Of a stretch of DNA of 43,091 nucleotides, positions 1 to 43,091 are shown in pieces. Origin of the DNA: a virus; the IMG/VR virus record IMGVR_UViG_3300031759_000054, positions 1 through 43,091 of that record. The stretch is one strand, 5' to 3'. Numbering within the stretch: position 1 is the first letter of the stretch; each line of letters opens with the position of its first letter. A model generated the notes under the pieces. It saw nothing but the letters and a program-made list of their open reading frames with translations, ran no database searches and had not been told where the DNA came from. The position numbers and the translations under genes were made by a program.

Positions 1-397
1 TTACTCTGTATATGTGATTGGTATCGTTTAATCCGTCGATACTAAAAATTACATAATCTTTCTGATAAGATAACATTGCACCTAAAGAACTCCACCAAGC
101 AGTAGACCGTAGACCTCCATTGGTATTCATACCCAATGTTATTGCGGGGTTTAATTTACGAAAATATCTATAAATTTCTAAGGTGTGCTTGCCTGCAGCA
201 GGATCACCATAATTTCCACACATATACATCTTGTCTAATGCTTTGATGGTATCTTCTGAAATAGCATCTGCTATATTATCTACAGTTAAATGGTGTAGCA
301 CAGACTTATCAAATGTAGGATCAGTTTCTCTGCTACATTGCGGACACGCTGCATTACAAGCATCTGTAGGTTCTAGATGTAATATTTTAGGTAACAT
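1..397 (-). CDS. Radical-SAM protein, N-terminal part (cut by left edge)
   Basis: This reading frame stays open to the left edge, so about 132 N-terminal residues are visible and the C-terminus is missing. Counting from the ATG at 397, residues 14-21 read CNAACPQC, the CxxxCxxC loop that binds the [4Fe-4S] cluster and SAM in radical-SAM enzymes. It follows the strand LHLEPTD. About 50 residues later MCGNYGDP stands where many relatives have the GGEP SAM-binding motif, and the visible part ends with a FSIDGLNDTNH segment typical of the barrel's middle strands. The start overlaps the gp46 end by 11 bases; an in-frame ATG at 406 is also possible. No Shine-Dalgarno is seen, so translation probably relies on coupling to gp46. 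The family call is strong. The substrate is unknown. The gene is co-oriented with the recombination genes, apart from the radical-SAM group at the right end. Confidence 0.85.
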   Translation of the reverse strand, partial: MLPKILHLEPTDACNAACPQCSRETDPTFDKSVLHHLTVDNIADAISEDTIKALDKMYMCGNYGDPAAGKHTLEIYRYFRKLNPAITLGMNTNGGLRSTAWWSSLGAMLSYQKDYVIFSIDGLNDTNHIYRV

Positions 398-2159: not shown

Positions 2160-2162
2160 AGG

Positions 2163-28439: not shown

Positions 28440-29060
28440 ATGAATTCAACAGCAAATTTAAGCATTATTGGGTTTTTAAAAATCCATGATCCAGAATCAC
28501 AACATACTTATGTAGAGAAATGCAATGCTATTCACTACGAAAACATGAGCTTGGCTCTAGCTCAAAATGTTGCTAACAAAAGCACAAACTTTATTACAGA
28601 AATGCACTTTGGTAATGGCGGTACTACTGTTGACCCTACTGGAGTTATTACATATTTGCCAACAAATACTAATGTACAAAATGCAGATTTGTATAATCCG
28701 ACATATTATAAAATAGTCGATGATACAAATGCCGCTAACCCAGATCCAATTAATAATAAAATAACTGTTAATCATACACCTGGTTTAATTTACACTGATA
28801 TTCTAGTTAGTTGTTTATTAGACTATGGCGAACCAAGCGGTCAGGCTGTTTTTGATAATAGTCAAAATTTAAATGATACCTTTACCTTTGACGAACTTGG
28901 TTTATTTGGCTCAGTATCAGGCGTAAGCGGATTAGGTGTAGGACTACCACTATTAACACATGTAATTTTTAGTCCAGTGCAGAAATCACTGAACAGACTT
29001 ATTCAAATCGATTATACAGTGCGAATTCAAACTCTAACTAACTTGAGTACAAATGCATAA
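28440..29060 (+). CDS. Tail/baseplate protein with GFLKIHDP N-terminus
   Basis: A 206-residue protein. The N-terminus (GFLKIHDPES, 11-20; NAIHYENMSLALAQ, 29-42) is a pattern seen in contractile-tail phages, where a Gly-x-hydrophobic-x-Ile-x-Asp strand is followed by Asn-Ala-hydrophobic-His and a helix. The rest is mainly beta, ending in the strand LIQIDYTVRIQTL. By position between the giant wedge protein and the fibre-like proteins it could be a fibre connector or a peripheral baseplate protein (the gp8-gp11 slot in T4), but I see no specific T4 match. It is directly fused in translation order to the 54-residue gene before it and followed by AGGA at 29063-29066. Confidence 0.6.
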   Translation: MNSTANLSIIGFLKIHDPESQHTYVEKCNAIHYENMSLALAQNVANKSTNFITEMHFGNGGTTVDPTGVITYLPTNTNVQNADLYNPTYYKIVDDTNAANPDPINNKITVNHTPGLIYTDILVSCLLDYGEPSGQAVFDNSQNLNDTFTFDELGLFGSVSGVSGLGVGLPLLTHVIFSPVQKSLNRLIQIDYTVRIQTLTNLSTNA

Positions 29061-29073
29061 TTAGGACATTAAA

Positions 29074-30450
29074 ATGGCGTATACAATAACAACAACGAAC
29101 GGAACAACATTAGGTACTATCCCAGATGGGCAGGTTAATGGACCGAATACTGCGGGTGGATTTACCAGTCTAACATTAGTTGGAAGAAATTATCCTAATT
29201 ACGGGCAGATTATTGCAGATGACTTAGTAGCATTATTAGAAAACTTCTCCGATACAACTGCTCCTGTAAATCAAATTAAAGGACAACTTTGGTGGAACAG
29301 TAGTGCTAATATATTAAGTGTTAACAAAGATGGTACTACCAATGGTTGGAAAACAGTAGGAGGAGCAACATATTCTTCTTCAGCACCTAGTTCCCCAACA
29401 CCAGGTGATTTATGGTACAATAGCAGTTCTAATCAATTTTATGCATATTCAGGTAGTACATGGGTATTAATAGGCCCATCATATAATTCTAACAATGGTG
29501 CAAGTGGCGCAATATGGGAAACTATCAGTGACGGAACTAATAATCATGATGTAGTATCATTATATTTAGATGGTATCAGAACAGCAATTATCAGTAAAGA
29601 TAGTACATTTACACCAAGTCCAAGTATCAGCGGATTTACTTCATTACAACCAGGTTATAATATGTCTTCGACATACACAATCTGGGGAACTGCAAACGTT
29701 GCCAGTTATATTGGCACACAACCTGCCGCCAATGTTTGGTATAATAATCAAAATAACACTGGTACTGGTACATTGTCTGTTGTTAATAATACTGGTATTA
29801 GTGTGGGTACAAATGGTGCATTGACATTATCAGTAAGCGGCAACATTGCACAACTAATTAATTCAGTAACTGGTGGTAACTTGTCGATGTATGTAAATTC
29901 ATCGCAATATGGTTCACAACGTGGATTTAATATTAGTGGTGTAACAGGTCATGTATATGTTAATGCTGATCCAATTTATTCATTGGGAGTTGCAACTAAA
30001 CAGTATGTTGATAATAGTTTTATTAACACAGCATTAACTGGCGTTCCTACTGCACCTACTATGCCTGGCGGTACTGCTAATACAGCAATTGCTACTACTG
30101 CGTTTGTTATTAACAATTCTGGATTCTTTACAAATAAAATCTATCAAGGTAATAGTGGTTTTGAAATTGATGACACTGGCGCAGGTACTGCTACACTAAC
30201 GATCGATAATACAGCAATATTAACAGCCAGCGTTAGTGGTGTAAATTTATTAAACGGTGCTACTGCAATTACTCAACCGGATACATATAATGGTACAGGT
30301 AATGCAGCAGTTGCTACAACACAGTTTGTTAAAAATTCTACACAATGGTGGGGTGGTAGTGCTAAATTTGTAAGTAACGTAGCACCTAATCCAGGTGTAA
30401 ACGATATTGGAAGTAATAACGGTGACTTCTGGTTCCAATATACGACGTAA
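29074..30450 (+). CDS. Fibre-like virion protein, paralog 1 of 3
   Basis: This 458-residue protein shares its first 190 residues with the next two gene products: TTTNGTTLGTIPDG, NYGQIIADDLVALLENFSD, GQLWWNSS, then PGDLWYNSSSNQFYAYSGSTW, VLIGP and a SGFTSLQPG strand. The middle is serine- and threonine-rich beta structure. Two copies of the tail-fibre motif PTAPTMPGG...IATTAFV and its later variant TQPDTYNG...VATTQFV occur at about 325-350 and 405-425. It ends with the short GDFWFQYTT. Such proteins in aquatic T4-like phages are annotated as tail fibres or short-fibre analogues. The ribosome site is AGGA, 7 bases before the ATG. Receptor binding is inferred, not shown. Confidence 0.7.
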   Translation: MAYTITTTNGTTLGTIPDGQVNGPNTAGGFTSLTLVGRNYPNYGQIIADDLVALLENFSDTTAPVNQIKGQLWWNSSANILSVNKDGTTNGWKTVGGATYSSSAPSSPTPGDLWYNSSSNQFYAYSGSTWVLIGPSYNSNNGASGAIWETISDGTNNHDVVSLYLDGIRTAIISKDSTFTPSPSISGFTSLQPGYNMSSTYTIWGTANVASYIGTQPAANVWYNNQNNTGTGTLSVVNNTGISVGTNGALTLSVSGNIAQLINSVTGGNLSMYVNSSQYGSQRGFNISGVTGHVYVNADPIYSLGVATKQYVDNSFINTALTGVPTAPTMPGGTANTAIATTAFVINNSGFFTNKIYQGNSGFEIDDTGAGTATLTIDNTAILTASVSGVNLLNGATAITQPDTYNGTGNAAVATTQFVKNSTQWWGGSAKFVSNVAPNPGVNDIGSNNGDFWFQYTT

Positions 30451-30458
30451 TATAGTAA

Positions 30459-30466
30459 GATAAATA
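30459..30466 (+). promoter_or_regulatory. Possible late promoter GATAAATA between fibre genes
   Basis: One mismatch from TATAAATA in the 39-base gap between the first two fibre-like genes. A start near 30472 gives about 18 bases of leader before the ATG at 30490, with AGGTAAGAG as ribosome site. This matches the spacing at 4847, so it is the better of the two GATAAATA copies. Confidence 0.45.
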
Positions 30467-30489
30467 ACATATAACAATAGGTAAGAGAA

Positions 30490-31731
30490 ATGGCATATCC
30501 AATAACTAACACAGCTGGTACTACTATAGCAACTATTGCAGATGGTACAGTTAACTCATCAGCTACCAGCCTTACCCTAATAGGCAAAAACTATGCCGGT
30601 TACGGTAATTTTTTAAATGAAAATTTTGTAGAATTATTAGAGAATTTTTCATACGGTGCGCCTCCAAGTAACCCATTAACTGGGCAACTATGGTGGGATA
30701 GTGCAAACACTCTATTAAAAATTTGTGTTAGTGGTAGTAGCAATGAATGGAAACCAATTAGTTCGTTAACAGCAGCCAGTGTTGCACCGAGTACTCCAGC
30801 ACCTACAGTAGGCGACCAATATTGGAATACTGTATCAGAACAACTTAGCGTATGGAGTGGTCCTACTAACCAATGGGTTACAATTGGTCCTGCATTTTCA
30901 GCAGTTGGCGGCACATCAGGTGCAGTAGCAGAAACAATTAAAGATAGTAATAATAATAATCAAACAGTGGTTAAATTATATACTGCTGGCACAGTAATTG
31001 GTATTGTTAGTGGTAATGCAACTCCGTTCACTCCGCAAACTACTATTAGTGGGTTTGGTACTATTAACCCAGGTTTTAATTTAATTAGTTCAAATACATT
31101 AACAGGTAGCCAATTCACAGGTAATGCCAGTAATGCACTATTATTAAATGGAATTGGTTCGAATCAATTCTTACGTAGCGATACTGCCGCAACAACAAAT
31201 TATCAATTAGGTGTCGGTTTATTACAAGTCGGTAGCGATTTACTTGTTAGTCCTACTGCATCATCTGAAATATCTTTTTCAAGCAATAGTGCATCTAAGA
31301 AAGACATTAGTTTTTATGTTAATAGCAATTCATTAAGAGCAGTTAATATCAACGGATCAAATGCAGCAATTATCTTGTCTAATACCGTTTCGGTATTAGG
31401 TACATTAAACGCAGGATCAACATTGAATGTAACAGGAAATGCAGTTATACAAGGTATTACTACGCATTCAAACAGTCTATTGCCAAATGTAGCGAACACT
31501 GTTAATATTGGATCTACCGGTACTCCATTTGCCAATGTTTATTCCAATAATCTAAATGGTAATGTTAATGCTACAGGTTATATACAAAATCCAGTATATT
31601 CAACTACTACAGCACGCGATGCAGCTATTACTTCACCAAAAGCTGGTATGACAGTATTTGTAACATCTGGTGCCAATGCAAGTCCAACTTTCTATGGATA
31701 TACTGGTAGCCAATGGGTTTCACTGAACTAA
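30490..31731 (+). CDS. Fibre-like virion protein, paralog 2 of 3
   Basis: The 413-residue protein repeats the N-terminal block of its neighbours: TNTAGTTIATIADG, KNYAGYGNFLNENFVELLENF and GQLWWDS. Its middle (about 200-330) is close to paralog 3, with TLTGSQFTGNASNALLLNG, SNQFLRSD and GVGLLQVGSDLLVSP. Its C-terminal tip is different: PVYSTTTARDAAITSP, AGMTVFVTSG and YTGSQWVSLN. This is a common ending of phage structural proteins that closes a trimeric fibre. The shared base and different tip suggest duplication followed by tip replacement. Confidence 0.7.
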   Translation: MAYPITNTAGTTIATIADGTVNSSATSLTLIGKNYAGYGNFLNENFVELLENFSYGAPPSNPLTGQLWWDSANTLLKICVSGSSNEWKPISSLTAASVAPSTPAPTVGDQYWNTVSEQLSVWSGPTNQWVTIGPAFSAVGGTSGAVAETIKDSNNNNQTVVKLYTAGTVIGIVSGNATPFTPQTTISGFGTINPGFNLISSNTLTGSQFTGNASNALLLNGIGSNQFLRSDTAATTNYQLGVGLLQVGSDLLVSPTASSEISFSSNSASKKDISFYVNSNSLRAVNINGSNAAIILSNTVSVLGTLNAGSTLNVTGNAVIQGITTHSNSLLPNVANTVNIGSTGTPFANVYSNNLNGNVNATGYIQNPVYSTTTARDAAITSPKAGMTVFVTSGANASPTFYGYTGSQWVSLN

Positions 31732-31753
31732 TTAAGAATAAAACTGGAATAAT

Positions 31754-33370
31754 ATGTCATATATAATTACTACAACCGCAGGTGCTACGTTAACAACATT
31801 AGCAGATGATACAGTTAATACTACTTCAACAAGTTTAAGTTTAGTAGGTAAGAACTATGCTGGTTATGGTATTTTTTTAAACGAAAATTTTGTACAATTA
31901 TTAGAAAATTTTAGTAATTCTAATTCACCAAAAGCACCATTAACAGGTCAGCTATGGTACGACAGCACTAACACATTAATAAAATTCTATACTGGTAGCA
32001 TTTGGAAACCGTTGCATACTTCTGCCGCAAGTCCTACAGCACCTCCAGGTCCAGTTCAAGGTGACTTATGGTGGAATACTACTACTTCACAACTTAGTGT
32101 TTATGGTGGGGGTACAGGATCATCAGCATGGGTAATTATTGGACCAGCATATACATCAACCGCAGGAACCAGTGGTGCAATTGCAGAAACTGTGTATGAT
32201 ACAGGTAATAATCCACACATTGTAGTTAAATTATACGTAAATAGTTACGTAGTAGCTATTTTTAACTATGGTACTGCATTTAGTATTCCGCTTACGGGTT
32301 CGAATGCAATTACGGGTTTTTCAACTATTAGTCCAGGTGTAACACTTATCAGTTCTGCGTCGCTTAGTGGAGCACAATTTTCTGGAACTGCTAATAACTC
32401 AACATATTTTAATAGTCTATCATCAAGTCAATTCTTACGTAGTGATGCAGGATCAAATAATGGCACTTATACATTAGGTGTAGGCAAATTACAAGCAGGT
32501 AGTGACTTGCTAATTGATCCAAGTGCCACAGACGTACAAATTTTTAGTAATGGCACTGGTATTAAAGATATAGGCATCTATGTTAATAAAGGCAGTACAC
32601 AAACTAAAGCAATTAATATTTCCGGATCATCTGGAATTACGCAATTTTTTGCCAATGTAAGTAGTCAATACATAATTCCAACAAATGACAATCAATATAC
32701 TCTTGGTCTTTCAGCATCAAGATTTGCTAATGTATTTTCAGTTGGAGTAACAACTACTAACGCATATACCGCTAACGTGTATGCTACTAATTTAAATACT
32801 ACAAATATTATCGGCTCTAGTTTATCTATGGCAACTGGAACATTATCAGGTGCATTAACTGTTAATACTGGCGGTGGTATAAATGCTATCATTAACGGTG
32901 CAAGTGGTTCTGGTGTAGGTAACATTGGTACAGCCGCAAATCCGTTTAACACAGTATTTGCTCGTGCTACCTCAGCACAATACGCTGACGTTGCAGAACG
33001 CTTTGAAGCAGATGTTCCTATGGCACCAGGTACTGTAGTAGAGTTGGGCGGCATTAAGGAAATTACACAGGCAGTTCAAGAATTGTCAGAAGCAGTATTT
33101 GGCGTTATAAGTACATTACCGGGCTTTTTATTAAATGGTACAGCGGGTAGTGATGATACTCACCCAGCAGTAGCAGTTAACGGGCGTGTGCCTGTTAGAG
33201 TTATTGGTCGAGTTAACAAAGGCGATCGTTTAGTCAGTGCTGGTCGAGGCCTTGCACGTGCGGCATTGCGCAGTGAAATGACGGCATTTAATGTAATTGG
33301 TCGCGCATTAGAAGATAAAACAACAGATGGTGAAGGTATGATCGAAGCCATTGTTAAATTAAACAGTTAG
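31754..33370 (+). CDS. Fibre-like virion protein, paralog 3 of 3, with G2-like C-terminal domain
   Basis: The 538-residue protein has the shared N-terminal block (TTTAGATLTTLADD; KNYAGYGIFLNENFVQLLENF; GQLWYDS) and a middle close to paralog 2 (SLSGAQFSGTANNSTYFN; SSQFLRSD; GVGKLQAGSDLLIDP). From about residue 405 there is a distinct domain: SAQYADVAERFEADVPMAPG, FGVISTLPGF, VNGRVPVRVIGRVNKGDRLV and a final ALEDKT..GEGMIEAIV. This resembles the G2-type (intramolecular chaperone, autoproteolytic) domain at the ends of some phage fibre and appendage proteins. If so, the domain would help the trimer fold and may be cut off. That assignment is from pattern memory and moderate. Confidence 0.68.
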   Translation: MSYIITTTAGATLTTLADDTVNTTSTSLSLVGKNYAGYGIFLNENFVQLLENFSNSNSPKAPLTGQLWYDSTNTLIKFYTGSIWKPLHTSAASPTAPPGPVQGDLWWNTTTSQLSVYGGGTGSSAWVIIGPAYTSTAGTSGAIAETVYDTGNNPHIVVKLYVNSYVVAIFNYGTAFSIPLTGSNAITGFSTISPGVTLISSASLSGAQFSGTANNSTYFNSLSSSQFLRSDAGSNNGTYTLGVGKLQAGSDLLIDPSATDVQIFSNGTGIKDIGIYVNKGSTQTKAINISGSSGITQFFANVSSQYIIPTNDNQYTLGLSASRFANVFSVGVTTTNAYTANVYATNLNTTNIIGSSLSMATGTLSGALTVNTGGGINAIINGASGSGVGNIGTAANPFNTVFARATSAQYADVAERFEADVPMAPGTVVELGGIKEITQAVQELSEAVFGVISTLPGFLLNGTAGSDDTHPAVAVNGRVPVRVIGRVNKGDRLVSAGRGLARAALRSEMTAFNVIGRALEDKTTDGEGMIEAIVKLNS

Positions 33371-33382
33371 GATAAAGAAAAT

Positions 33383-34351
33383 ATGTCATATTCATCAGGC
33401 GGCACCATTGCAGCAACGGACTATAATAACTTAGCCTGGGGCGGAACACAGGGTACATACACATCAAGTCCAAATAACGTTGCTTATGTTATGGGCGTTG
33501 GTAGTGGCCAATTTGGGTACGGCCAAGATCTTAGTTTAATTAACACAGTGTCTACTGCTGCTACTGTAACAGCCGTTCAATGGGCCGGTTTGTTCCTTTT
33601 AACTAATCGTGCATTAGGGCATCAAGGTGGTACACAAATTGCTGCAGGTAACTTAAATGCTACATCCGGACAGACAATTACATATTTTTCAAACGTAGCA
33701 ACTGCGGTAACATCAATTAATACTAATAAAGCATCTTACGGCTCACAAGGTACAACTATAACAGGTAGTAACTTTACTGCTTCTTGGACCAATGCTGCTA
33801 CTACTTCGGCACTTGTCTTTGGAGTAACCCGTACTGTAACATTTGCCAGTGGCGATGCTGCTCGTTATTTCTTTAACGCAGGCGGACAAATTAACTTAGT
33901 TATGAGTGGAACTAATAATGACGGTAGCAATCGTAGCGGCGATGTAGTTACATTGTTAGGTTACGTTGGTACTGCACAAGGTTTAAAAGCGACTACCTTT
34001 GGTGGACGCACAGGCACAGGTGGTACAGGTGGTACTGTAAATACCAGCAACGGGTATTATAACTTACCTAATGCAATTGGTAGCCAAGTTAACTTAATTC
34101 AAAATATTTATAGTACCGCAAGTACGTATAATGGTGATTATATATACGTTAATGCGTACAATTCCACTACAAATGCCAGTGGTCATGGTGATAATGGTGT
34201 AACGATCAATTTGAGTATTGGTGTATACTTAGCAGCAAAATCTTTATCATTTAATGAAAGTGTCAACGTAACTGTTACACATCGAGTAGATATTATTCCA
34301 CCAGAATCTACATATTTGACTAATAGCTGGGGTACTCCGACTATTGCATAA
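33383..34351 (+). CDS. Virion structural protein, last gene of the late operon
   Basis: A 322-residue, Gly/Ser/Thr/Asn-rich protein. It begins GGTIAATDYNNLAWG, has DAARYFFNAGGQINLVMSG near 175, a Gly/Thr linker (about 212-222), and ends with the strands NVTVTHRVDIIPPES. The RYFFNAGG signature recurs in structural proteins of aquatic T4-like phages. I do not recognise a specific T4 counterpart. The protein follows the three fibre-like genes and is followed by a terminator, so it is the final virion gene here. It may be a fibre tip, a decoration protein or a receptor-binding accessory. Confidence 0.6.
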   Translation: MSYSSGGTIAATDYNNLAWGGTQGTYTSSPNNVAYVMGVGSGQFGYGQDLSLINTVSTAATVTAVQWAGLFLLTNRALGHQGGTQIAAGNLNATSGQTITYFSNVATAVTSINTNKASYGSQGTTITGSNFTASWTNAATTSALVFGVTRTVTFASGDAARYFFNAGGQINLVMSGTNNDGSNRSGDVVTLLGYVGTAQGLKATTFGGRTGTGGTGGTVNTSNGYYNLPNAIGSQVNLIQNIYSTASTYNGDYIYVNAYNSTTNASGHGDNGVTINLSIGVYLAAKSLSFNESVNVTVTHRVDIIPPESTYLTNSWGTPTIA

Positions 34352-34372
34352 TAGTTAAATAGAGTATATAAT
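34344..34372 (+). promoter_or_regulatory. Sigma70-like promoter for the accessory operon
   Basis: TTGCAT (34344-34349), a 17-base spacer and a perfect TATAAT (34367-34372). The -35 overlaps the end of the last virion gene. The predicted start, near 34379, lies inside the left arm of the terminator at 34373-34403. Its layout mirrors the gp55 promoter (TTG..., 17 bases, TATATAAT). Confidence 0.55.
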
Positions 34373-34403
34373 AAAGGTAAGTTTTTCCTGCTTACCTTTT
34401 TTT
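34373..34403 (+). terminator. Rho-independent terminator after the virion operon
   Basis: AAAGGTAAG (34373-34381) pairs with CTTACCTTT (34391-34399) across a 9-base loop, and a run of seven T (34397-34403) follows. It lies 21 bases after the last virion stop codon. It should end late transcription before the accessory genes. Confidence 0.85.
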
Positions 34404-34419
34404 ACGGCTATATACTTAT

Positions 34420-34734
34420 ATGAGTGAATTAGATCAATTAGTAACACAAATCAAACAAGCGACTGATTATCAAACCAATAAACGTATTCTACGTGAAAAG
34501 ATTCTAACTGATCTGCATGTAGCCTACAACAATGGTTTGTTCAAAGTCAGCCCAGAACTGATTGCGTTCTTAGCCACATGGCCCAGTGACGAATTGTTCT
34601 TAGAAGATACCTACGAAAACCCAATTAAAATTGTTCGTACAGAATTTTTAAGCCTGTGCCAAGATCACTATCAACGTGTAATGAACACATGGCATATTCA
34701 ATTTGAAGAGATTAAGCGTGCAAGACGTATCTAG
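34420..34734 (+). CDS. Small conserved-looking protein of unknown function (104 residues)
   Basis: First gene after the terminator. No Shine-Dalgarno is visible before the ATG. The protein looks soluble and mainly helical, with MSELDQLVTQIKQATDYQTNK at the start, a central LATWPSDELFLEDTYENPIK loop and a basic end (KRARRI). I recognise no family. It overlaps the glycosyltransferase-like gene by 17 bases if that gene starts at 34718, the same overlap length found at several later junctions. This supports it as a true member of the accessory operon. Confidence 0.6.
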   Translation: MSELDQLVTQIKQATDYQTNKRILREKILTDLHVAYNNGLFKVSPELIAFLATWPSDELFLEDTYENPIKIVRTEFLSLCQDHYQRVMNTWHIQFEEIKRARRI

Positions 34735-35461
34735 AGGTGTATTAATCTTTGCTTTTAACACAGAAGCAGTTGACTATGTAGCAATTGCCGAACAAACTGC
34801 ACGTCTTGTTAAGCATACACTTGGACTACCTGTGACTATTATCACAGATCAAGAAGTTGATAATACCTTTACTAATGTGCGTGCTGGTTATGCTGGCGGA
34901 ACTGCTTGGCGTAATGGTGATAGATACACAGCATATGATGTTAGTCCCTACGATGAAACTATTTTAATTGACAGTGATTACCTAGTATTAGACCGTAGTC
35001 TGCTTACCCTATTAGATACTACAGAAGATTATAGACTACAGCATAATGGTGTAGGCAATATGGGTGTGCTTAGTTTAGATTATGTCTGGGCTACTGCTAT
35101 TGTGTTTAAACGCACAGAAAAAACTCGCTTACTGTTTAATCTAGTAGGACGCATACAGCGCAATTACTCTTATTATTGCAAACTCTATCAATTACGTGAA
35201 CGCAACTTTCGCAACGATTATGCGTTTGCTATTGCTAACAATATCATCAATGGCTACACACCTAACCAATCACAGGGAATACCGTGGCCTATGCTGACCA
35301 TTGACAAGCCCGTTAAACAAATAGACATTCGAGGCAATATGCTGATAGTTAGAGAAGATGTTGCTAGGTTTATACCCCGTCAAAACATACACATCATGGA
35401 TAAAGATTATTTACAAAGTGATTTACACGTTAAGTTTGTGGATACCGTATGTCAAGAATAA
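34718..35461 (+). CDS. Glycosyltransferase-like protein A (GT-A type)
   Basis: I start this gene at GTG 34718 (247 residues), since GAAGAG at 34705-34710 is 7 bases upstream; a TTG at 34703 would add five residues. The N-terminal strand RGVLIFAFNTEAVDYVAIAE, LGLPVTIITD and the later ETILIDSDYLVLD form a Rossmann-like half ending in Asp-x-Asp. That is the metal/nucleotide-sugar site expected of GT-A glycosyltransferases. The rest does not match a family I can name. It resembles the next protein in plan (an FAFNTE/FAQNTE opening, then PYDETILIDSD/PFKETIKLESD), so the two are probably distant paralogs. Sugar transfer is inferred. A non-catalytic relative is possible. Confidence 0.6.
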   Translation: MQDVSRGVLIFAFNTEAVDYVAIAEQTARLVKHTLGLPVTIITDQEVDNTFTNVRAGYAGGTAWRNGDRYTAYDVSPYDETILIDSDYLVLDRSLLTLLDTTEDYRLQHNGVGNMGVLSLDYVWATAIVFKRTEKTRLLFNLVGRIQRNYSYYCKLYQLRERNFRNDYAFAIANNIINGYTPNQSQGIPWPMLTIDKPVKQIDIRGNMLIVREDVARFIPRQNIHIMDKDYLQSDLHVKFVDTVCQE

Positions 35462-36312
35462 ATCCATTTATAGAACAGCAAGGGTTTGTTACTTTTGCAC
35501 AAAATACCGAACAGGTCAACTACTTAAAGCTGGCCTATGTACAGGCTATGAGCATTAAACTTGTTATGCCTACTGCTAAGTATGCTGTGATAGTAGACGA
35601 AGCTACGTTAGCCAAAGTCGAAGATCGACATCGACAGATATTCGACTACGTTATCAAACTTCCGTTTGATAGTGCCCAAGACGACACATGGAAGTTACGT
35701 AACGAGCCGCAGGTATTTGAACTAACACCATTTAAAGAAACAATTAAACTTGAAAGTGACATTGTGTTTACACGCAGTATCGAACATTGGTGGACGATGT
35801 TTAGATTGCGTAACGTAGTATTAAGTCTAGGTTGTAGGGATTACCAAGGCGAAGCCAGCGAAGTGCGCCGATATAGAAAAATATTTGATGACAATAATCT
35901 ACCGGATACTTATAATGGACTGATGTATTTCCGTTATAGTCGTGAAGCATATGATTTTTTTGATATAGCAGAAAGTATTTACAATTCTTGGAACTTTATT
36001 AAAGACAACGTATTGGTTAATTGTAGAGAAGAACTACCTACTACAGATGTGGTTTATGCTATGGCTGCCAGTCACCTAGGAGTAGAGAATTGCACCTTAC
36101 CGGAAATAGACTTTGTTAATTTTACACATATGAAAAATGCTATTAACACTTGGCCCGAAACAACTCCGTGGCCAGAATTGGTCTTAAGTGAATTGGACTT
36201 ACCTATGATCAGAGTTAATAATATTAATCAATATCACCCATTCCACTATCAGGATAAAAATTGGGTCACTGATGAAGTAGTAGAGAGATTTGAACATGAA
36301 TTCAGAAGATGA
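35449..36312 (+). CDS. Glycosyltransferase-like protein B, paralog of A
   Basis: The 287-residue protein overlaps the previous gene by 13 bases. Its opening QGFVTFAQNTEQVNYLKLAY, then KYAVIVDE and LTPFKETIKLESDIVF, parallels protein A strand by strand. The presumed Asp-x-Asp is replaced by ESD (LESDI), so metal binding may differ. MYFRYSREAYDFFDIAE and ELPTTDVVYAMAA in the second half resemble the acceptor half of GT-A folds, where a negatively charged pair often follows. No signal peptide or membrane segment is present, so it should act in the cytoplasm. A role in making or attaching a sugar is likely but unproven. Confidence 0.55.
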   Translation: MSRINPFIEQQGFVTFAQNTEQVNYLKLAYVQAMSIKLVMPTAKYAVIVDEATLAKVEDRHRQIFDYVIKLPFDSAQDDTWKLRNEPQVFELTPFKETIKLESDIVFTRSIEHWWTMFRLRNVVLSLGCRDYQGEASEVRRYRKIFDDNNLPDTYNGLMYFRYSREAYDFFDIAESIYNSWNFIKDNVLVNCREELPTTDVVYAMAASHLGVENCTLPEIDFVNFTHMKNAINTWPETTPWPELVLSELDLPMIRVNNINQYHPFHYQDKNWVTDEVVERFEHEFRR

Positions 36313-36646
36313 GTTTCTAAAAGCCATAGCAATGATTGAACTATTGCCTGTGCTAGATAAAGAATATCGTATATACTACGATAAACAGGGCAATATTACT
36401 CATTGTACTATGACTGGGGATCCTTTAGATCAGTCATATATTGTAGTAACCTTGGATGAGTACACTAATTATTCTAAGTACACTGTTGAGAATAATAAAC
36501 TTAAATTGATTGACAACAATCCCGGTTATCGTGTACAATTAAGTAAGAGTGAAGTTGGTTACAAAACTGTAAAAAATCACGCTGGGCTTGTATTAGAGCC
36601 CGGTGAGACCTATGAGAACGTAGAACACTATGACGCAAATAATTGA
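36296..36646 (+). CDS. Small acidic protein of unknown function (116 residues)
   Basis: I start at ATG 36296 because AGAGAG at 36282-36287 is well placed; a TTG at 36290 is the alternative. It overlaps the previous and next genes by 17 bases each. The sequence has two beta-rich parts: KEYRIYYDKQGNITHCTMTG, then YIVVTLDEYTNYSKYTVEN, and after RVQLSKSEVGYKTVKNHAG the acidic end ETYENVEHYD. It has no catalytic pattern and no recognisable domain. Its placement among enzymes could make it a subunit, a carrier or a substrate of the pathway. None of these can be preferred from sequence. Confidence 0.55.
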   Translation: MNSEDEFLKAIAMIELLPVLDKEYRIYYDKQGNITHCTMTGDPLDQSYIVVTLDEYTNYSKYTVENNKLKLIDNNPGYRVQLSKSEVGYKTVKNHAGLVLEPGETYENVEHYDANN

Positions 36647-37529
36647 TATCGCAGACCTGGACTGCATTTACCTAACATATGATGAACCTAATAAAGAACA
36701 AAATTGGATTAAGATTCAAAACATGGTACCATGGGCAAAAAGGGTTGACGGCGTTAAGGGCAGTGACGCCGCACACAAGGCATGTGCTGACATCAGCGAC
36801 ACTGATCGTTTTGTGGTCGTTGACGGTGATAATATTCCCGATCCAGGATTTTTCAACCTTCAGCTTGCTCTTACTGATGCTAATAGCGATAAAGTATTTC
36901 GTTGGCGTGCTCGCAACCATATTAATGGGCTACAGTACGGAAACGGAGGACTAAGCTGCTGGACTAAAGAGTTTGTGTATAACATGCGAACACATGAAGC
37001 CAGTGACGGTGACGCTAAGAACGATGTAGAGTTTTGTTTTTACCCTAACTATTGGGCTATGAGTGACTGCTATTCAACAACATATCCAAATCAAACACCA
37101 TTTCAAGCATGGCGAGCAGGCTTTAGAGAAGGTGTTAAGATGTGCTTAGATCGCGGCACTAAACCTAGCTTACAAGAATTTGAAAGTAAAGTACATCATC
37201 GCAACTATGACCATTTGTGTATTTGGCAGTCAGTGGGCTCGGATGTGGAAAACGGATTTTGGGCAATATATGGCGCACGTTTGGGTACATACTTAACAAT
37301 GCTATGCGATTGGGAATATCGTTGGGTGCAAGACTTTGACACACTTGCAGACCTATGGAATGAATATAACCATGAAGATATTGCTGTGGATCACTGCAAG
37401 GTAATAGGTGATACATTGCGTCAACGTTTAGCATTACCTATTGTGGATATGGATCCAGAAGAAAGCAAGTTCTTTAAACATCATTATAAGAGTAACTTTA
37501 AAAATCAAGGACCAATGGTACGTGAATAA
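36630..37529 (+). CDS. Glycosyltransferase-family-2-like protein C
   Basis: The 299-residue protein opens with DCIYLTYDEPNKEQNW, continues with WAKRVDGVKGSDAAHKACA, and then RFVVVDGDNIPDPGF. This order of a first strand, a GVKG loop and a Asp-Gly-Asp (about residues 64-66) is that of small GT-A proteins found in phage genomes, where the pair binds the metal and nucleotide sugar. The second half has NDVEFCFYPNYWAMSD and a tryptophan-rich C-terminal region (HLCIWQSVGSDVENGFWAIYG). It differs from A and B in sequence, so the operon holds two GT types. Its ATG is 17 bases inside the previous gene. Acceptor and sugar are unknown. Confidence 0.6.
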   Translation: MTQIIDIADLDCIYLTYDEPNKEQNWIKIQNMVPWAKRVDGVKGSDAAHKACADISDTDRFVVVDGDNIPDPGFFNLQLALTDANSDKVFRWRARNHINGLQYGNGGLSCWTKEFVYNMRTHEASDGDAKNDVEFCFYPNYWAMSDCYSTTYPNQTPFQAWRAGFREGVKMCLDRGTKPSLQEFESKVHHRNYDHLCIWQSVGSDVENGFWAIYGARLGTYLTMLCDWEYRWVQDFDTLADLWNEYNHEDIAVDHCKVIGDTLRQRLALPIVDMDPEESKFFKHHYKSNFKNQGPMVRE

Positions 37530-38136
37530 GAATTGGTACCTAGTAGATGTTGACATTACTAATGCTATTAATAGCAATTTTTCTTTTGAGCATTTATTAG
37601 AAAGTTCACCGTTTATTAGTAAAAAACAACACGGTATATGGGGGTATGAGCAAGAGCAATTGACTACAATATTCACAGACCAATGGTTATCATATATGAA
37701 AAGCATTGACCTAGAAGTATTTGTTGCAATGTTATTTTATAGAAGCCCATTTTTTACTCATCCAGAAGCACACGTTGATTTTGTATACAATAATGTACAG
37801 CCTACTATTGCTTTAAATTGGGTCATTAACAATCCCGATATCAGTAGTATGGTATGGTATCAAACACCAGTCAATTCACCTATACATGATCACAGTACTA
37901 CGCCTGCTGCTGATTGGATTAAGTATTCTGGATGGCTAACTGATGGATTAGTTGAAATTGAACGTAGAACCATTGGAGATATACCTACTATAGTCAGAGT
38001 AGATATTCCGCATAATATTGAAGTATTTGACAAAGAACGATGGAGTATAAGTGTTAGATGTAAAGCACCGAGTACTATTGTAAATTGGTGTGACATAGTT
38101 AATTATATAAAACCTAGGATAATCAATGAGCAGTGA
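37522..38136 (+). CDS. 2-oxoglutarate/Fe(II) oxygenase-like protein
   Basis: I start at GTG 37522 (204 residues) because AAGGA lies 10 bases upstream and the overlap with the previous stop is a coupled GTGAATAA. An upstream TTG at 37441 lies well inside the previous gene. EAHVDF (82-87) gives the HxD pair, His84 and Asp86. Next come ALNWVI and VWYQTP strands, then PTIVRVDIPH with His164 and RWSISVR with Arg179. His-x-Asp, His and Arg in this order are the iron and 2-oxoglutarate ligands of the jelly-roll oxygenases. Such enzymes hydroxylate or otherwise oxidise peptides, sugars or bases. The substrate is unknown. It overlaps the first radical-SAM gene by 11 bases. Confidence 0.65.
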   Translation: MNKNWYLVDVDITNAINSNFSFEHLLESSPFISKKQHGIWGYEQEQLTTIFTDQWLSYMKSIDLEVFVAMLFYRSPFFTHPEAHVDFVYNNVQPTIALNWVINNPDISSMVWYQTPVNSPIHDHSTTPAADWIKYSGWLTDGLVEIERRTIGDIPTIVRVDIPHNIEVFDKERWSISVRCKAPSTIVNWCDIVNYIKPRIINEQ

Positions 38137-39520
38137 TTTCATGTCGAGCGCAGAGTCAATGAAGGACAAACTAGGTCCTGCACTCTGCTTGGCTAAATGG
38201 CAACAGGTTAGTCTACACCTAACAACAGGCATGACTAATAGTTGCTACCATCCACCCCTACATGAAATAGATCCACAACCATTGCTGGCCAATCCTAGTG
38301 CCTTACACAACACAGCGTATAAAAAACAGCAACGTGTTATCATGCTTAAACAAGAACGCCCAAGTGAATGTAGTTATTGCTGGTCAGCTGAAGATAACGG
38401 ACAGTTAAGTGACCGTCATTATCGTAGTGGCGAGCCATGGGCCGCAGAACACTTTGACACTATTGTAAACAGCACAGGCCTTGAAGATGCTACTCCTAGT
38501 TATGTAGAAGTAAACTTTAGTCATGGCTGTAATCTAGCATGTAGTTATTGCAGTCCACAATACTCAACCGAATGGGGCAAAGACATTGCTAAGTTTGGTG
38601 CTTATCCTACAAGTACTCCGCACAATGCGCCAGAACACTTTGAAGGTAGACGTAAGCCTATTCCAGTACGTGAACACAATCCTTATGTAGAAGCATTTTG
38701 GTCTTGGTGGCCTAGTTTATATGGTAGTCTTAAACACTTCCGTATGACAGGCGGAGAGCCACTTATGGATAAGAACACGTACCGTGTGTTTGACTATATT
38801 CTGGAACTACCTAAAAGTGACCTACATGTAGACGTTACCAGTAACTTTAGTGTAGAACCAGAACTGTTTGACAAGTATATGGACAAAGTTAAACAACTAT
38901 GCAAAGGTGAGCGCATAGAACACTTCATGCAGTATGTTAGTTTAGATAGTGGTGATCCTGTACAGTCTGCCTACATACGCAGAGGCATGGGGCCGCATCG
39001 CGTAAACACTTATGTACACCGTTTCCTTACACAGATTCCATATCGCAACAGTTTAACTTATATTATTACTATGAGTAACTTAAACATACTTGGATTGAAA
39101 CGCTTATTAGAGCATATTTTAGAATTACGCAAGTTACATAGTACAACCTATCAACGTGTTTGGTTTGACACGCCATTGCTGCGTAGTCCTACATGGCAAA
39201 GTCTACAAATACTTCCAGCAAGTTATTATACTGTGTTAGAAGACGTAATAGCATATATGAAAGAAAATGTCATGCCTGAAGATAGTTTTGTAGGATTTAA
39301 AGACTATGAAATACAGCGTATGGAACGTAACTTACTTTGGATGAAAGAACCTAAGGAACCTAAATATCTTGAAGAACAGCGTGCAGACTTTTATCGTTTC
39401 TTCAGTGAATATGACCGCCGCGATGAATATATGCAAACTGGAAATCCTGGCTTCTTAGCCGCTTTCCCACAAATGAAAGAATTTTGGAACGAATGTAAAT
39501 ATCATGCCGAAAAAGCCTAA
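38126..39520 (+). CDS. Radical-SAM protein with N-terminal cysteine (twitch-like) domain, copy 1
   Basis: A 464-residue protein with CNLACSYC (135-142) as the SAM-cluster loop and GGEP (209-212) as the SAM-binding motif. Before the barrel are four cysteines, C21, C40, C82 and C85, spaced 19, 42 and 3. They lie in CLAKW, TNSCYHPP and ECSYCW, and are candidate ligands of an extra Fe-S cluster. The next gene product has the same spacing. AGGAT about 8 bases upstream is the ribosome site, and the ATG lies in the oxygenase stop region. Proteins of this kind are called twitch-domain radical-SAM proteins. In bacteria such domains often act on peptides or sugars. The exact reaction is unknown. Confidence 0.85.
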   Translation: MSSDFMSSAESMKDKLGPALCLAKWQQVSLHLTTGMTNSCYHPPLHEIDPQPLLANPSALHNTAYKKQQRVIMLKQERPSECSYCWSAEDNGQLSDRHYRSGEPWAAEHFDTIVNSTGLEDATPSYVEVNFSHGCNLACSYCSPQYSTEWGKDIAKFGAYPTSTPHNAPEHFEGRRKPIPVREHNPYVEAFWSWWPSLYGSLKHFRMTGGEPLMDKNTYRVFDYILELPKSDLHVDVTSNFSVEPELFDKYMDKVKQLCKGERIEHFMQYVSLDSGDPVQSAYIRRGMGPHRVNTYVHRFLTQIPYRNSLTYIITMSNLNILGLKRLLEHILELRKLHSTTYQRVWFDTPLLRSPTWQSLQILPASYYTVLEDVIAYMKENVMPEDSFVGFKDYEIQRMERNLLWMKEPKEPKYLEEQRADFYRFFSEYDRRDEYMQTGNPGFLAAFPQMKEFWNECKYHAEKA

Positions 39521-40880
39521 CGAATCAGACTTACAATATAAGCGTAGAGTGATTGACATTAAGTCAGAAAGCTTCTGTGCAGCCAAATGGTACAATGCTA
39601 CTATATGGTTAGGATCAGGACAGACTACAAGTTGTCATCATCCACTACCACATGCCATTGACCGTGATGCTATCTTAATTAATCCTGGTGCTATACATAA
39701 TACACCGCAGAAGAAAGAAGAGCGTCGTATGATGCAACGTGGCGAACGCCCTAGTGGATGTGAATACTGCTGGAAGATTGAAGATATGTACAAGGATCCT
39801 AAGTATGCTGGGGTAGATGTGCCTGTGCCTATCAGTGATCGTGTTTATAAAACTGTTATATATGAGGATCAAGACTTAAATGAAGCTTTTAATACACCTC
39901 CGGAACAGGACGTCAATCTACAAACCTTGGAAATTGCTTTTGATCGCACTTGTCAGTTTGCCTGTAGCTACTGTAATCCTGCTTTCAGTAGCAGTTGGGT
40001 TAAGGATATCCATCGTAATGGACCATATACCGACTTGGTATCCGATGGCCGCAACCATTTTACTCATGAGCATAATAGTAGTCAACTGTATACTATCACT
40101 GAAGTTAATCCTTACGTTGAGGCCTTCTTCCGTTGGTGGGAATCAGACCTACACAGAACACTCAAAGAGCTACGCATCACAGGGGGTGAACCGCTTATGT
40201 CGGGTTACACGTGGAAACTCCTCGACTGGTTTAAAGAGCACAAAGGTCAGAGCAAGACACGTCTTGCATTAAACAGTAACTTAGGATTCGATCGTGATAA
40301 AATTGATAGATTGTTGGAAGCATGTGAAGGTATTGACCTTGATATATATACAAGCAATGAAAGCATGGGTAGACATGCGGTATATATTCGTGATGGTTTG
40401 GATTGGAATCAATGGGTTAGCAATGTTAGTTATCTATTGGATAGTGGCAAACTGCGCGGCCTACATGTTATGTGTACCATCAATGCCTTATGCTTATTGA
40501 GTCTTACTGAATTCCTGTGGAGCATAGTTAATCTTAAACAGAAGTATAGCAAGGATTCAATTAACTTTAGCCTAAACATCTTACGCTTTCCTAGTTTCCA
40601 AAGCCCACTAATCTTACCTGTAGAGTTTAGACAACAAGCCGCAGGAGAATTGACCAGATTCCATATGGCCAATACTCAGATCATACATGAATTTGAAGGC
40701 AATCAAGTGACTAGATTAGTCGACTATCTCGAAACTGTAGATAGTCCACATAGCGGTGCCTTGTCACGTGAGATCTTACAACGTGACTTTAAGAATTTTT
40801 ATCAACAATACGACCAGAGACGTGGTCTAGACTTTAAATATACATTTCCACAATTAGCAGACTGGTACGATACACTATGA
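39504..40880 (+). CDS. Radical-SAM protein with N-terminal cysteine (twitch-like) domain, copy 2
   Basis: The 458-residue paralog of the previous protein. It has CQFACSYC (150-157) and ITGGEP (225-230) for cluster and SAM binding. Its N-terminal cysteines C25, C44, C86 and C89 have the same 19, 42 and 3 spacing as copy 1. SCHHPLPHAID and the ERPSGCEYCW segment line up with copy 1's SCYHPPLHEID and ERPSECSYCW. The gene starts 17 bases inside copy 1 and ends in the ATGA overlap with the double radical-SAM gene. The two copies probably arose by duplication. They may act on different steps or substrates. Confidence 0.85.
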   Translation: MPKKPNESDLQYKRRVIDIKSESFCAAKWYNATIWLGSGQTTSCHHPLPHAIDRDAILINPGAIHNTPQKKEERRMMQRGERPSGCEYCWKIEDMYKDPKYAGVDVPVPISDRVYKTVIYEDQDLNEAFNTPPEQDVNLQTLEIAFDRTCQFACSYCNPAFSSSWVKDIHRNGPYTDLVSDGRNHFTHEHNSSQLYTITEVNPYVEAFFRWWESDLHRTLKELRITGGEPLMSGYTWKLLDWFKEHKGQSKTRLALNSNLGFDRDKIDRLLEACEGIDLDIYTSNESMGRHAVYIRDGLDWNQWVSNVSYLLDSGKLRGLHVMCTINALCLLSLTEFLWSIVNLKQKYSKDSINFSLNILRFPSFQSPLILPVEFRQQAAGELTRFHMANTQIIHEFEGNQVTRLVDYLETVDSPHSGALSREILQRDFKNFYQQYDQRRGLDFKYTFPQLADWYDTL

Positions 40881-43091
40881 GCAAACAACATAAGAATCAC
40901 AATTATAATACTCTCAACCCTGTTTATATAAATGAAGATCAACTAACAACAGATCAAAAATATAAATTAACTGAAAGTAAAACATTCTGTATGATTCCTT
41001 GGATACATCTACATGGATTTCCAGACGGTCGTGCTTATCCTTGCTGTCTGGCAGATTCCCAATTGCCTGTAGGTAATTTCAGAAAAAATACTATGAAGGA
41101 AGTATGGAATGGTGTTGCTTATCGTCGCATGCGTACCAATATGCTCAATGATAAATCGTGTAAGGAGTGTAGTAAATGCTACGAACAAGAATCTAATGGT
41201 TTCTTTAGTATGCGCAACAGTGCTAATAAAAACTTTGGGCATCATATTAAATTAGTTGATCAAACCAAAGAAGATGGTACATTTGAGGACTTTAAATTAC
41301 GCTACTACGATATACGTTTTAGTAACCTATGTAACTTTAGTTGCCGTACCTGTGGTAGTTTGTTTAGTTCAAGTTGGTATCAGGAAGAAACAAAACTGTT
41401 TGGCAAACTAAATCATCCACAGATCATGTATGCTGGTCGAGACAAAGAAGATATGTGGGAGCAGATGCAAGAACATATTCCTTATTTAGAACAAATCTAT
41501 TTTGCCGGTGGTGAGCCATTGATTATGGAAGAACACTATCGCATCTTAGAAGAGTTAGTTAAGCGTAAGATGTTTCATGTACGTTTAATATACAATACAA
41601 ACTTTAGCCATATGAAACTTAAAGACAAGTATGTATTTGACTATTGGAAATTATTTGACAGTGTTGGTGTAGGTGCAAGTTTAGATGACAGTTATTTGCG
41701 TGGTGAATATATGCGCAAAGGACAAGATTGGGCAGAAACTGTAGAGAATCGTCGTAAAATGATAGAAATTTGTCCTAATGTAGATTTTTATATTAGTGCT
41801 ACTGTGAGTATTTACAATGCCTGGCATGTTAGTGAATTCCATAGAGAATGGGCTGATCTAGGATTAATCAAGCCAATGGACTGGAATGTTAATATTCTAC
41901 AAGGACCAGAGCGTGACCGTGTTGATGTATTACCTATTCAATTTAAGGATCGTATTAAACAACGTCTCGAAGAGCATATTGCTTGGCTAGAACCATTGGA
42001 TCACTTACAACGAGCAGTAAGTGGGTATAAGGGTCTTATCTCATTTATGTATCAAGATGATAAGAGTCATTTATTAGGCGAATTCTTTAAAATTAATGAT
42101 CAGACTGATGAACATCGTAAAGAGAAATTTGAAGATGTATTTCCAGAGTATGCTGAACTTCGTAATTACTTAGGTATTAATAAAACGCACGAAAATATTT
42201 GTATGTTACCTTGGGTCAGCATAGAAGCCAGTCCTGTTGGCACAGCACGCCCGTGTTGTTTGGCTAAAGATGAAATTACTAAACCTGATGGTACAGTATA
42301 CAAACTAACAGAAAATAGCCTAGGTGAAATCTACCAAAGCGAATATATGCAGAATTTACGTCAGGAGTTTCTAGACGGTAAGAAACCTAGTACATGTAAT
42401 CGTTGTTGGGATGAAGAAGCAAGTGGTCGAACCAGTAAACGTATCAATAGTCGCATACGGCTAAAGAAGTATTATACAATTGTTGATTGGAATAATGTTA
42501 AACCAGATCAACTGTGGTTTATTGATCTTAAATTAGGTAATATCTGTAATCTTAAATGTCGCATCTGCGGTAGTTGGTCAAGTAGTAAGTGGGCTAAAGA
42601 AGAAGTTGATTACGAAGAAAAAAATCATAAAGATGCTGGTGTAGAATTCTACGATCGTAAAAGTCATTTAGCATATACATTCTTACAAGATGGTGCTTGG
42701 CCACGCAATAATGATATATTCTGGGATAATTTAAAAACACTGCTACCTAATATCAAATATTTTGAATTTACAGGTGGTGAACCATTTTTAATTGAAGAAC
42801 ATTTTAAATTATTGCGATTTGCAGTTGAACAAGAATACAGTCAAAAGATTGACATTCACTATAATACAAATGGTACAGTGTATCCTACAGCTGATGAAGT
42901 TGAACTATGGAAGAAATTTAGTCGTGTAGAAATTGCAGTTAGTATTGACAATGTAGGTGATCGATTTGAATATGAGCGATATGGTGCTAAGTGGGCAGAA
43001 GTAACTGAGAATATTAGCAAGTTTAATCTCCTACGTTCAAAACAAATTGTGACGCAAGTATGTATGACTGTAAACATTCAGAATGTTTACT
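40877..43091 (+). CDS. Tandem double radical-SAM protein (cut by right edge)
   Basis: The frame starts at the ATGA overlap and is open to the right edge, giving at least 738 residues. I followed it codon by codon and found no stop or shift. Module 1 has CMIPW (C38), PCC (55-57), CKECSKC (95-101), CNFSCRTC (152-159) and AGGEP (210-214). Module 2 repeats the order: ICMLPW (C442), PCC (459-461), CNRCW (507-511), CNLKCRIC (557-564) and TGGEP (632-636). So one chain carries two full sets of cluster-binding cysteines, each with a preceding extra-cluster domain. A tandem duplication followed by fusion is likely. The C-terminus of module 2 is missing. The substrate is unknown. Confidence 0.85.
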   Translation, partial: MSKQHKNHNYNTLNPVYINEDQLTTDQKYKLTESKTFCMIPWIHLHGFPDGRAYPCCLADSQLPVGNFRKNTMKEVWNGVAYRRMRTNMLNDKSCKECSKCYEQESNGFFSMRNSANKNFGHHIKLVDQTKEDGTFEDFKLRYYDIRFSNLCNFSCRTCGSLFSSSWYQEETKLFGKLNHPQIMYAGRDKEDMWEQMQEHIPYLEQIYFAGGEPLIMEEHYRILEELVKRKMFHVRLIYNTNFSHMKLKDKYVFDYWKLFDSVGVGASLDDSYLRGEYMRKGQDWAETVENRRKMIEICPNVDFYISATVSIYNAWHVSEFHREWADLGLIKPMDWNVNILQGPERDRVDVLPIQFKDRIKQRLEEHIAWLEPLDHLQRAVSGYKGLISFMYQDDKSHLLGEFFKINDQTDEHRKEKFEDVFPEYAELRNYLGINKTHENICMLPWVSIEASPVGTARPCCLAKDEITKPDGTVYKLTENSLGEIYQSEYMQNLRQEFLDGKKPSTCNRCWDEEASGRTSKRINSRIRLKKYYTIVDWNNVKPDQLWFIDLKLGNICNLKCRICGSWSSSKWAKEEVDYEEKNHKDAGVEFYDRKSHLAYTFLQDGAWPRNNDIFWDNLKTLLPNIKYFEFTGGEPFLIEEHFKLLRFAVEQEYSQKIDIHYNTNGTVYPTADEVELWKKFSRVEIAVSIDNVGDRFEYERYGAKWAEVTENISKFNLLRSKQIVTQVCMTVNIQNVY

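Follow-up and report, generated by a model that had tools for sequence, protein, structure and literature searches.

Clusters of glycosyltransferase and radical S-adenosylmethionine (radical-SAM) genes beside tail-fibre genes are already published for the pelagimyophages, members of the T4 superfamily whose host recognition cluster is described as combining tail fibres, several glycosyltransferases (GT8 being the commonest), radical-SAM cassettes and lipopolysaccharide (LPS)-type sugar genes (Zaragoza-Solas et al., 2020; PMC7029224). As described there, the island is non-syntenic, two similar genomes differing in it by added radical-SAM cassettes, and the freshwater fonsimyophages are said to be without LPS and radical-SAM genes (PMC7029224). 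The locus reported here lies in the IMG/VR virus record IMGVR_UViG_3300031759_000054, the whole of which (43,091 bases, one strand) is referred to as the window. Unlike the pelagimyophage island, its cassette has a fixed order, namely P1, the glycosyltransferase-type genes GTa and GTb (P2 and P3), P4 in most cases, P5, a radical-SAM series and a gene of protein cluster c10, with defined slots in between; this order was kept in 36 of 36 loci with both P1 and c10, and it is this fixed-order variant that is new. The cassette may represent the opening segment of a glycan pathway encoded by the phage.

Other described systems resemble it in part. A T4-like environmental genome carries 12 radical-SAM genes, which are discussed with iron-sulphur metabolism in a main text where 'glycosyl' has no occurrence (Nishimura et al., 2017; PMC5332604). 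Viral contigs from the Tasman Sea are enriched in radical-SAM and glycosyltransferase genes, RmlD also being typical there, in what is presented as a community gene profile that, in the text available, gives no gene order, cassette or tail-fibre link (PMC7150976). Mycobacteriophages, a different phage group, share with the proposed pathway the presence of glycans on virion proteins, reported on the capsid and tail tube (Freeman et al., 2023, as cited in PMC12619734), and the available text of PMC10783043 offered nothing beyond single mentions. The fixed-order cassette was not found in the open-licence literature searched, so far as those texts were accessible.

The cassette occupies positions 34420 to 43091 and comprises the following genes.

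P1, 34420..34734, plus strand: conserved protein of 104 amino acids, first gene of the cassette (alignment; none of the 33 members scanned matched a PHROG).
P2 (GTa), 34718..35461, plus strand: GT-A-type glycosyltransferase by prediction, GTG start, invariant DxD.
P3 (GTb), 35449..36312, plus strand: predicted GT-A-type glycosyltransferase, GT8/glycogenin-like.
P4, 36296..36646, plus strand: small, fast-evolving protein of 116 amino acids (alignment).
P5, 36630..37529, plus strand: well-conserved core enzyme, predicted GT-A-like domain (about residues 3-155, DGDN motif) and helical C-terminal part.
P6, 37522..38136, plus strand: 2-oxoglutarate (2OG)-Fe(II) oxygenase-like by motif, GTG start, optional cargo.
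P7, 38126..39520, plus strand: N-terminal-twitch radical-SAM protein 1 (NF033640).
P8, 39504..40880, plus strand: N-terminal-twitch radical-SAM protein 2 (NF033640).
P9, 40877..43091, plus strand: fused pair of N-terminal-twitch radical-SAM units (NF033640), cut at the record end.

Since P9 runs off the end of the record, the latter is evidently a fragment. Successive genes overlap by 17, 13, 17, 17, 8, 11, 17 and 4 bases (starts and stops checked), exactly the eight lengths listed in a first-pass annotation of the sequence. All eight junctions from P1 to P9 overlap, compared with one of 12 among the upstream plus-strand structural genes, the junction into P1 included. Across the 54 loci with a P1 gene (drawn from the relatives L001-L066 plus the window), overlaps were found at 621 of 702 junctions downstream of P1 versus nine of 240 upstream, as counted by one mechanical longest-open reading frame (ORF) rule that inflates overlaps on both sides of P1. 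Gene overlap is therefore a property of the cassette segment, unlike the remainder of the window. The ratio of nonsynonymous to synonymous substitution rates (dN/dS) of the window genes was 0.02-0.38 where computable (four pairings), except against the near-identical L002 for P4 (0.62) and P1 (0); these values are rough, many dS values exceeding 1. The cassette is thus real, ordered and mostly under purifying selection.

Two sets of relatives were assembled: a scan with P7 yielded the 66 viral loci of set A (L001-L066), whereas set B (L096-L175) comprises the 80 best of 317 P1-family relatives. Set B was chosen by similarity and is thus biased towards agreement; the sets have contigs in common and contain near-identical records (e.g. 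L034, L036 and L038), and for this lack of independence they were kept separate. Clustering of ORFs resolved a main architecture of tail fibres, tf5, P1, GTa, GTb, P4, P5, a slot, radical-SAM 1, a slot, radical-SAM 2, radical-SAM 3 and 4 (fused in some relatives, as in P9), a slot, radical-SAM 5, c10, SGNH genes and a carbamoyltransferase gene. The 36-locus sample consisted of the set A loci with P1 and, after it, c10, both being present by selection; every one carried at least two glycosyltransferase genes, then P5, then radical-SAM genes (four to seven), with 30 distinct P5 sequences, P4 in 35 loci and c4 in 18. Because this order is kept throughout, the core genes are not scattered in relatives; together with the overlaps, the syntenic cassette supports one tightly coupled pathway, as proposed at first pass, and one that is directed at a glycan.

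A strict ordered-core label pattern was passed by 52 of the 66 loci in set A and 62 of the 80 in set B. Seven of the 14 misses in set A have a boundary within the cassette (L003, L010, L020, L030, L035, L043 and L066), three have the correct order and fail because of how the ORFs were chosen or because of a single additional small ORF (L027, L028 and L037), and four show a different arrangement (L060, L062, L063 and L065, of which L060 also begins at the end of its contig). All 18 misses in set B keep the order over the fetched stretch, 17 of them stopping at a contig end and L099 inside its contig, at the end of the stretch. No PHROG match was obtained for c10 in the 30 members scanned. A further cluster, c18, lies on the opposite strand in or near the cassette and appears by eye to be HNH homing endonuclease-like (L013:4368-5045, minus strand; also L007, L008, L170 and L181).

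The four radical-SAM domains recognised in the first-pass annotation are confirmed by one CxxxCxxC motif each in P7 and P8 and two in P9, and by scores against NF033640 (twitch domain-containing radical SAM protein) of 272, 276 and, over two stretches of P9, 676 bits; P7, P8 and both halves of P9 all exceed the curated cut-off of 170. Seven cysteines (C21, C40, C82, C85, C135, C139 and C142) are invariant in all 14 rows of an alignment to which the window contributed four, which provides N-terminal cysteines for one extra cluster in addition to CxxxCxxC. The units of P9 are separate genes in many relatives, and its counterpart in L001 has 844 codons with a stop present; P9 alone gave no match among PDB sequences. 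The NF033640 description names no substrate, and in the window four such units stand in a row alongside transferases. Viperin-like nucleotide chemistry was set aside, the best score against NF038283 being 48.8 bits (P9) with a cut-off of 180, although the radical-SAM profile has viperins as its best matches in the PDB.

A pair of GT-A-like proteins had been proposed at first pass; GT-A-like proteins are indeed predicted (P2 and P3), but they number three rather than two, since P5 is also GT-A-like. The P3 family profile matched glycogenin structures (E 2.5e-6) over profile positions 4-112 only (109 positions), and phrog_1903, a function-unassigned family, with E 1.8e-4. P2 is a paralogue of P3 (hhalign 99.6% between the families) in which D85 and D87 are invariant, and had no PDB match of its own worth naming. 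For P5, the AF2 model (predicted local distance difference test, pLDDT, 90.3) suggests that the first 155 residues are GT-A-like: Foldseek returned RmlT (E 9e-4), comparison with B4GALNT1 gave VIA Z 9.3, root-mean-square deviation (rmsd) 3.2 and 139 aligned residues, and D65-G66-D67 of the DGDN motif are invariant. Among Pfam glycosyltransferase families, P5 reached 15.3 bits against a cut-off of 27, and P2 and P3 matched none. Long P5 relatives of 744-1267 amino acids occur at the far end of the cassette (L176:2254-4659, L178:5009-7243 and L180:3318-7118); two of these were scanned and gave no glycosyltransferase match in Pfam.

The oxygenase-like P6 had been placed among the core members of the pathway, which the relatives do not support. 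The P6 type occurs in one of the 36 loci holding P1 and c10, and L002, whose P7 is 98% identical to that of the window, is without it, P5 passing directly into P7 through a clean, overlapping junction; the slots thus take whole genes in and out, and P6 is optional cargo. A viral scan with P6 returned only the L001 contig again, and diverged copies are present in L014 and L103. Its designation as 2OG-oxygenase-like is upheld as far as the motif goes (H84-x-D86, H164, R173/R179), which is conserved in a 37%-identical homologue (two non-identical sequences), but Pfam, PHROG, NCBIfam and PDB sequences gave no match. Another protein, c28, which appears 2OG-like by eye, is present in a few loci. At the P4 position, L073:8670-10001 encodes a protein of 444 amino acids with a weak CBM_5_12 match (E 0.009, below the cut-off).

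Beyond the point where the window ends, the cassettes of relatives continue with SGNH proteins, nucleotide-sugar enzymes, GT-B transferases and a carbamoyltransferase, identities that were established by scanning one to ten representatives per search rather than every cluster member. The carbamoyltransferase is c11 (E 2e-46), c14 is an NAD epimerase (E 5e-38), c20 and c27 are DegT aminotransferases (DegT matches at E 3e-107 in one scan and E 9e-56 in another), c22 is PfkB-like, c32 is cytidylyltransferase-like (CTP_transf, E 2e-15) and c6 resembles SGNH proteins (PDB match with E 1e-4, confined to the first 69 positions of the profile); a single locus carries PIG-L (E 3e-14) and GFO/IDH/MocA proteins. 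Pfam gave nothing useful for the 50 members of c4, whose GT-B fold is seen in the model only (pLDDT 95.0; Z 13.8 to 8xsh, rmsd 4.1, 271 aligned). In four of the six distal stretches (L176-L179) the carbamoyltransferase end is followed by epimerase and DegT members and then by thymidylate synthase and a DHFR-like gene; in L180 and L181, epimerase, DegT and carbamoyltransferase members share a neighbourhood. Judged from these sequence matches, the distal cargo is nucleotide-sugar chemistry. The contrast drawn at first pass with nucleotide-metabolism operons holds, and the same nucleotide-sugar enzymes, GT-B transferases and carbamoyltransferase narrow its suggestion of a glycan or peptide product, pointing to a sugar and away from a peptide. 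Further slot cargo consists of a radical-SAM protein whose match to a B12-binding domain falls below the cut-off (L050:8146-9960, c21) and of c31 proteins that appear amidinotransferase-like by eye and had no Pfam match (L022:8004-9041 and L180:9405-10430).

On the other side of the cassette, the following features precede P1.

Tail-fibre side, 28440..34351, plus strand: lies upstream of P1 in relatives also; possible acceptors.
c9-type protein, 28440-29060, plus strand.
Three tail-fibre-like proteins, starts 29074, 30490 and 31754, plus strand: by PHROG (29074, tail fibre / virion structural; 30490, virion structural) or clustering only (31754).
tf5, 33383-34351, plus strand: upstream of P1 in relatives, no PHROG match.
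Cassette start, 34367..34419, plus strand: TATAAT at 34367-34372, hairpin arms at 34374-34381 and 34391-34398, then a T run.

We propose that the nine genes form the initial portion of a glycan pathway that the phage encodes and whose acceptor is a virion protein, most likely one of the adjacent tail-fibre proteins, and assign this reading a probability of roughly 0.45. The cassette would probably build and attach an unusual sugar coat. Phage enzymes would make or tailor an activated sugar, on which the radical-SAM enzymes would perform radical chemistry, e.g. epimerisation, dehydration or oxidation; P2, P3 and P5 would then assemble the sugar and transfer it to the acceptor, P1 and P4 serving as helpers or being linked to that acceptor. 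Slot genes such as P6, extra glycosyltransferases and SGNH proteins would vary the decoration from phage to phage and hence the particle surface, serving as a shield or in adsorption. We know of no radical-SAM series in the mycobacteriophages with glycosylated virions.

A virion acceptor is favoured by the tail-fibre genes lying directly upstream of P1 and by the scarcity of predicted membrane proteins after P1 (three of 753 by a crude filter), and the first cassette genes also co-vary with tf5: over 21 loci, partial correlations controlling for P5 and radical-SAM 1 were 0.33 for P1, 0.53 for P2, 0.38 for P3 and 0.61 for P4. We do not take this co-variation as proof that the acceptor is a virion protein, since adjacent genes have a history in common. 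Mantel p values over 32 loci do not keep relatedness, and the 21-locus comparison with control genes carries no p values.

Several observations weigh against the virion-glycan proposal. Among the control genes, radical-SAM 2 (-0.08) and c9 (0.16) correlated little with tf5, but the distant c10 reached 0.31, about as high as P1, so the contrast is not clean, and the co-variation is partly linkage, P1-P4 being neighbours of tf5. Nucleotidyltransferases share the predicted fold of P5 and appear in the same structure-match list, although in our judgement the invariant DGDN motif favours a transferase. The 14-row radical-SAM profile found viperin nearest among PDB sequences, followed by the sugar-nucleoside enzyme BlsE and the peptide enzyme SkfB, and these nearest solved relatives do not fix the substrate. 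Finally, the promoter region suggests separate, early expression of the P1 operon: a sigma70-type site (score at least 10) lies in the 110 bases before P1 in 31 of 43 non-identical relatives, with 2.2 expected from shuffles, and an exact T4 late box in none of the 43.

The window's own site is weaker (9.5, as in L001), and sigma70-type sites at the same threshold are not unique to P1, being in excess before P5 (11/56, 2.0 expected), c10 (7/34, 1.2 expected) and tf5 (8/52, 2.1 expected). Late boxes precede tail-fibre genes in 13 of 69 cases (0.7 expected), are near chance before tf5 (2/52, 1.1 expected) and are absent before c9 (0/39). In 15 of the 43 relatives (score at least 9) the -10 hexamer ends 3-9 bases before the P1 start codon, which suggests a leaderless P1 message in those relatives. 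Several relatives apparently have the -35 element within the terminator hairpin after the tail-fibre genes, by eye.

Early expression would suit a pathway that alters the LPS or capsule of the host and thereby blocks superinfection by competing phages, an explanation we regard as possible, if somewhat doubtful. A host O-chain change has been inferred for the comparable pelagimyophage clusters with GT8 and radical-SAM cassettes (PMC7029224), and an annotation for PagP-type lipid A acylation, which points to the host surface in that phage, lies near distant radical-SAM relatives in Vibrio phage K566. The kinase- and nucleotidyltransferase-like genes of a few relatives (PfkB and CTP_transf) also agree with it, and presumably represent a heptose-type route. 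The crude filter applied to the proteins after P1, however, predicted a membrane helix in three of 753; with so few membrane proteins no phage-encoded lipid-carrier export is seen, and flippase, polymerase and ligase would have to come from the host. The transferases, moreover, adjoin the tail-fibre gene and co-vary with it, subject to the linkage already noted.

That the substrate of the radical-SAM enzymes is a peptide or a tail protein, modified in the manner of ribosomally synthesised and post-translationally modified peptides (RiPPs), and that the transferases glycosylate it afterwards, appears improbable. SPASM/twitch radical-SAM enzymes often modify peptides (PMC11002830), SkfB is among the weak PDB matches and sactipeptide maturases are among the weak NCBIfam matches. 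Nevertheless, RiPP maturase models remained far below their cut-offs (625-650) at a best score of 38.4 bits (P9), among the best 25 of 29 families, and no precursor-like small gene stood out among ORFs of at least 50 amino acids, P1 and P4 being the sole small conserved proteins.

Clusters for DNA hypermodification include carbamoyltransferases and glycosyltransferases, and T4 beta-glucosyltransferase is among the fold matches of the c4 model (Z 12.5); a thymidylate-synthase-family gene, moreover, was present in 10 of 15 large contigs and near the cassette far end in the four fetched stretches that include it. Decoration of phage DNA bases by the transferases, carbamoyltransferase and radical-SAM enzymes is nonetheless very improbable, as the thymidylate synthase match covers all or nearly all of 266 positions (~340-370 bits) and its gene adjoins the DHFR-like gene (by eye), with a dCMP-deaminase-family gene nearby in three of the four stretches (by clustering, Pfam-confirmed in one), which amounts to an ordinary dTMP set, TET/JBP matched none of the 15 contigs (the control being likewise silent) and the cassette neighbours tail-fibre genes rather than genes of replication.

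The major capsid protein gp23 of T4 was detected in 11 of 15 contigs of 75-349 kb, which places the cassette in T4-superfamily phages; a search for gp14 (PF11649), the neck gene that together with VrlC flanks the pelagimyophage cluster, was silent in all 15 contigs and in all 14 controls. Many of the cassette-bearing contigs are, we believe, from lakes. Searches of isolate phages by tblastn with P5, P7 and P9 found no close cultured relative: P5 gave nothing within the E limit of 1e-3, and the sole hits of P7 and P9 were to Vibrio phages K566 and K567, with 22-24% identity. The K566 stretch (L071) holds four annotated radical-SAM genes and NAD-salvage genes, with no glycosyltransferase among its annotations.

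P5 relatives in bacterial records amounted to 24 loci, some phage-like by gene order and others in contigs of Bdellovibrionota and Rhodobacteraceae with no tail-fibre genes nearby. Those in Bdellovibrionota (L078, L079, L083, L087, L094 and L095) are in tandem in the first four, and the contigs also carry radical-SAM genes of the same clusters, L087 having in addition a c10 relative and, by eye, an asparagine-synthase-like protein. Rhodobacteraceae contigs (Tateyamaria and Ruegeria; L085, L088, L090 and L092) carry a P5 relative, which in L085 and L090 stands after a GT4-like gene and close to caspase-like genes (by eye). Elsewhere in the window, genes for SbcC- and SbcD-like nuclease subunits are adjacent at 387-3179 (minus strand), and one ORF of 4067 amino acids (16052-28255) lies ahead of the tail-fibre genes; in the fetched loci the flank limit truncates most of its relatives, so that sizes are not comparable.

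More broadly, and only as a tentative suggestion that we consider less likely than not, the cassette could be a modular radical-SAM/glycosyltransferase assembly line with swap-in tailoring slots, carried by a widespread T4-superfamily lineage, that makes sugars of a type so far unreported in phages and puts them on tail fibres, so that glycan chemistry, in addition to the sequence of the fibres, tunes host range or evasion. If this were true, many uncultured aquatic phages would build their own decorated sugars beside their host-recognition genes, and the host range or evasion of phages would gain a chemical level. It would also explain the high number of radical-SAM enzymes in such phages, and would place a series of uncharacterised radical enzymes, which probably modify sugars, in a defined genetic setting.

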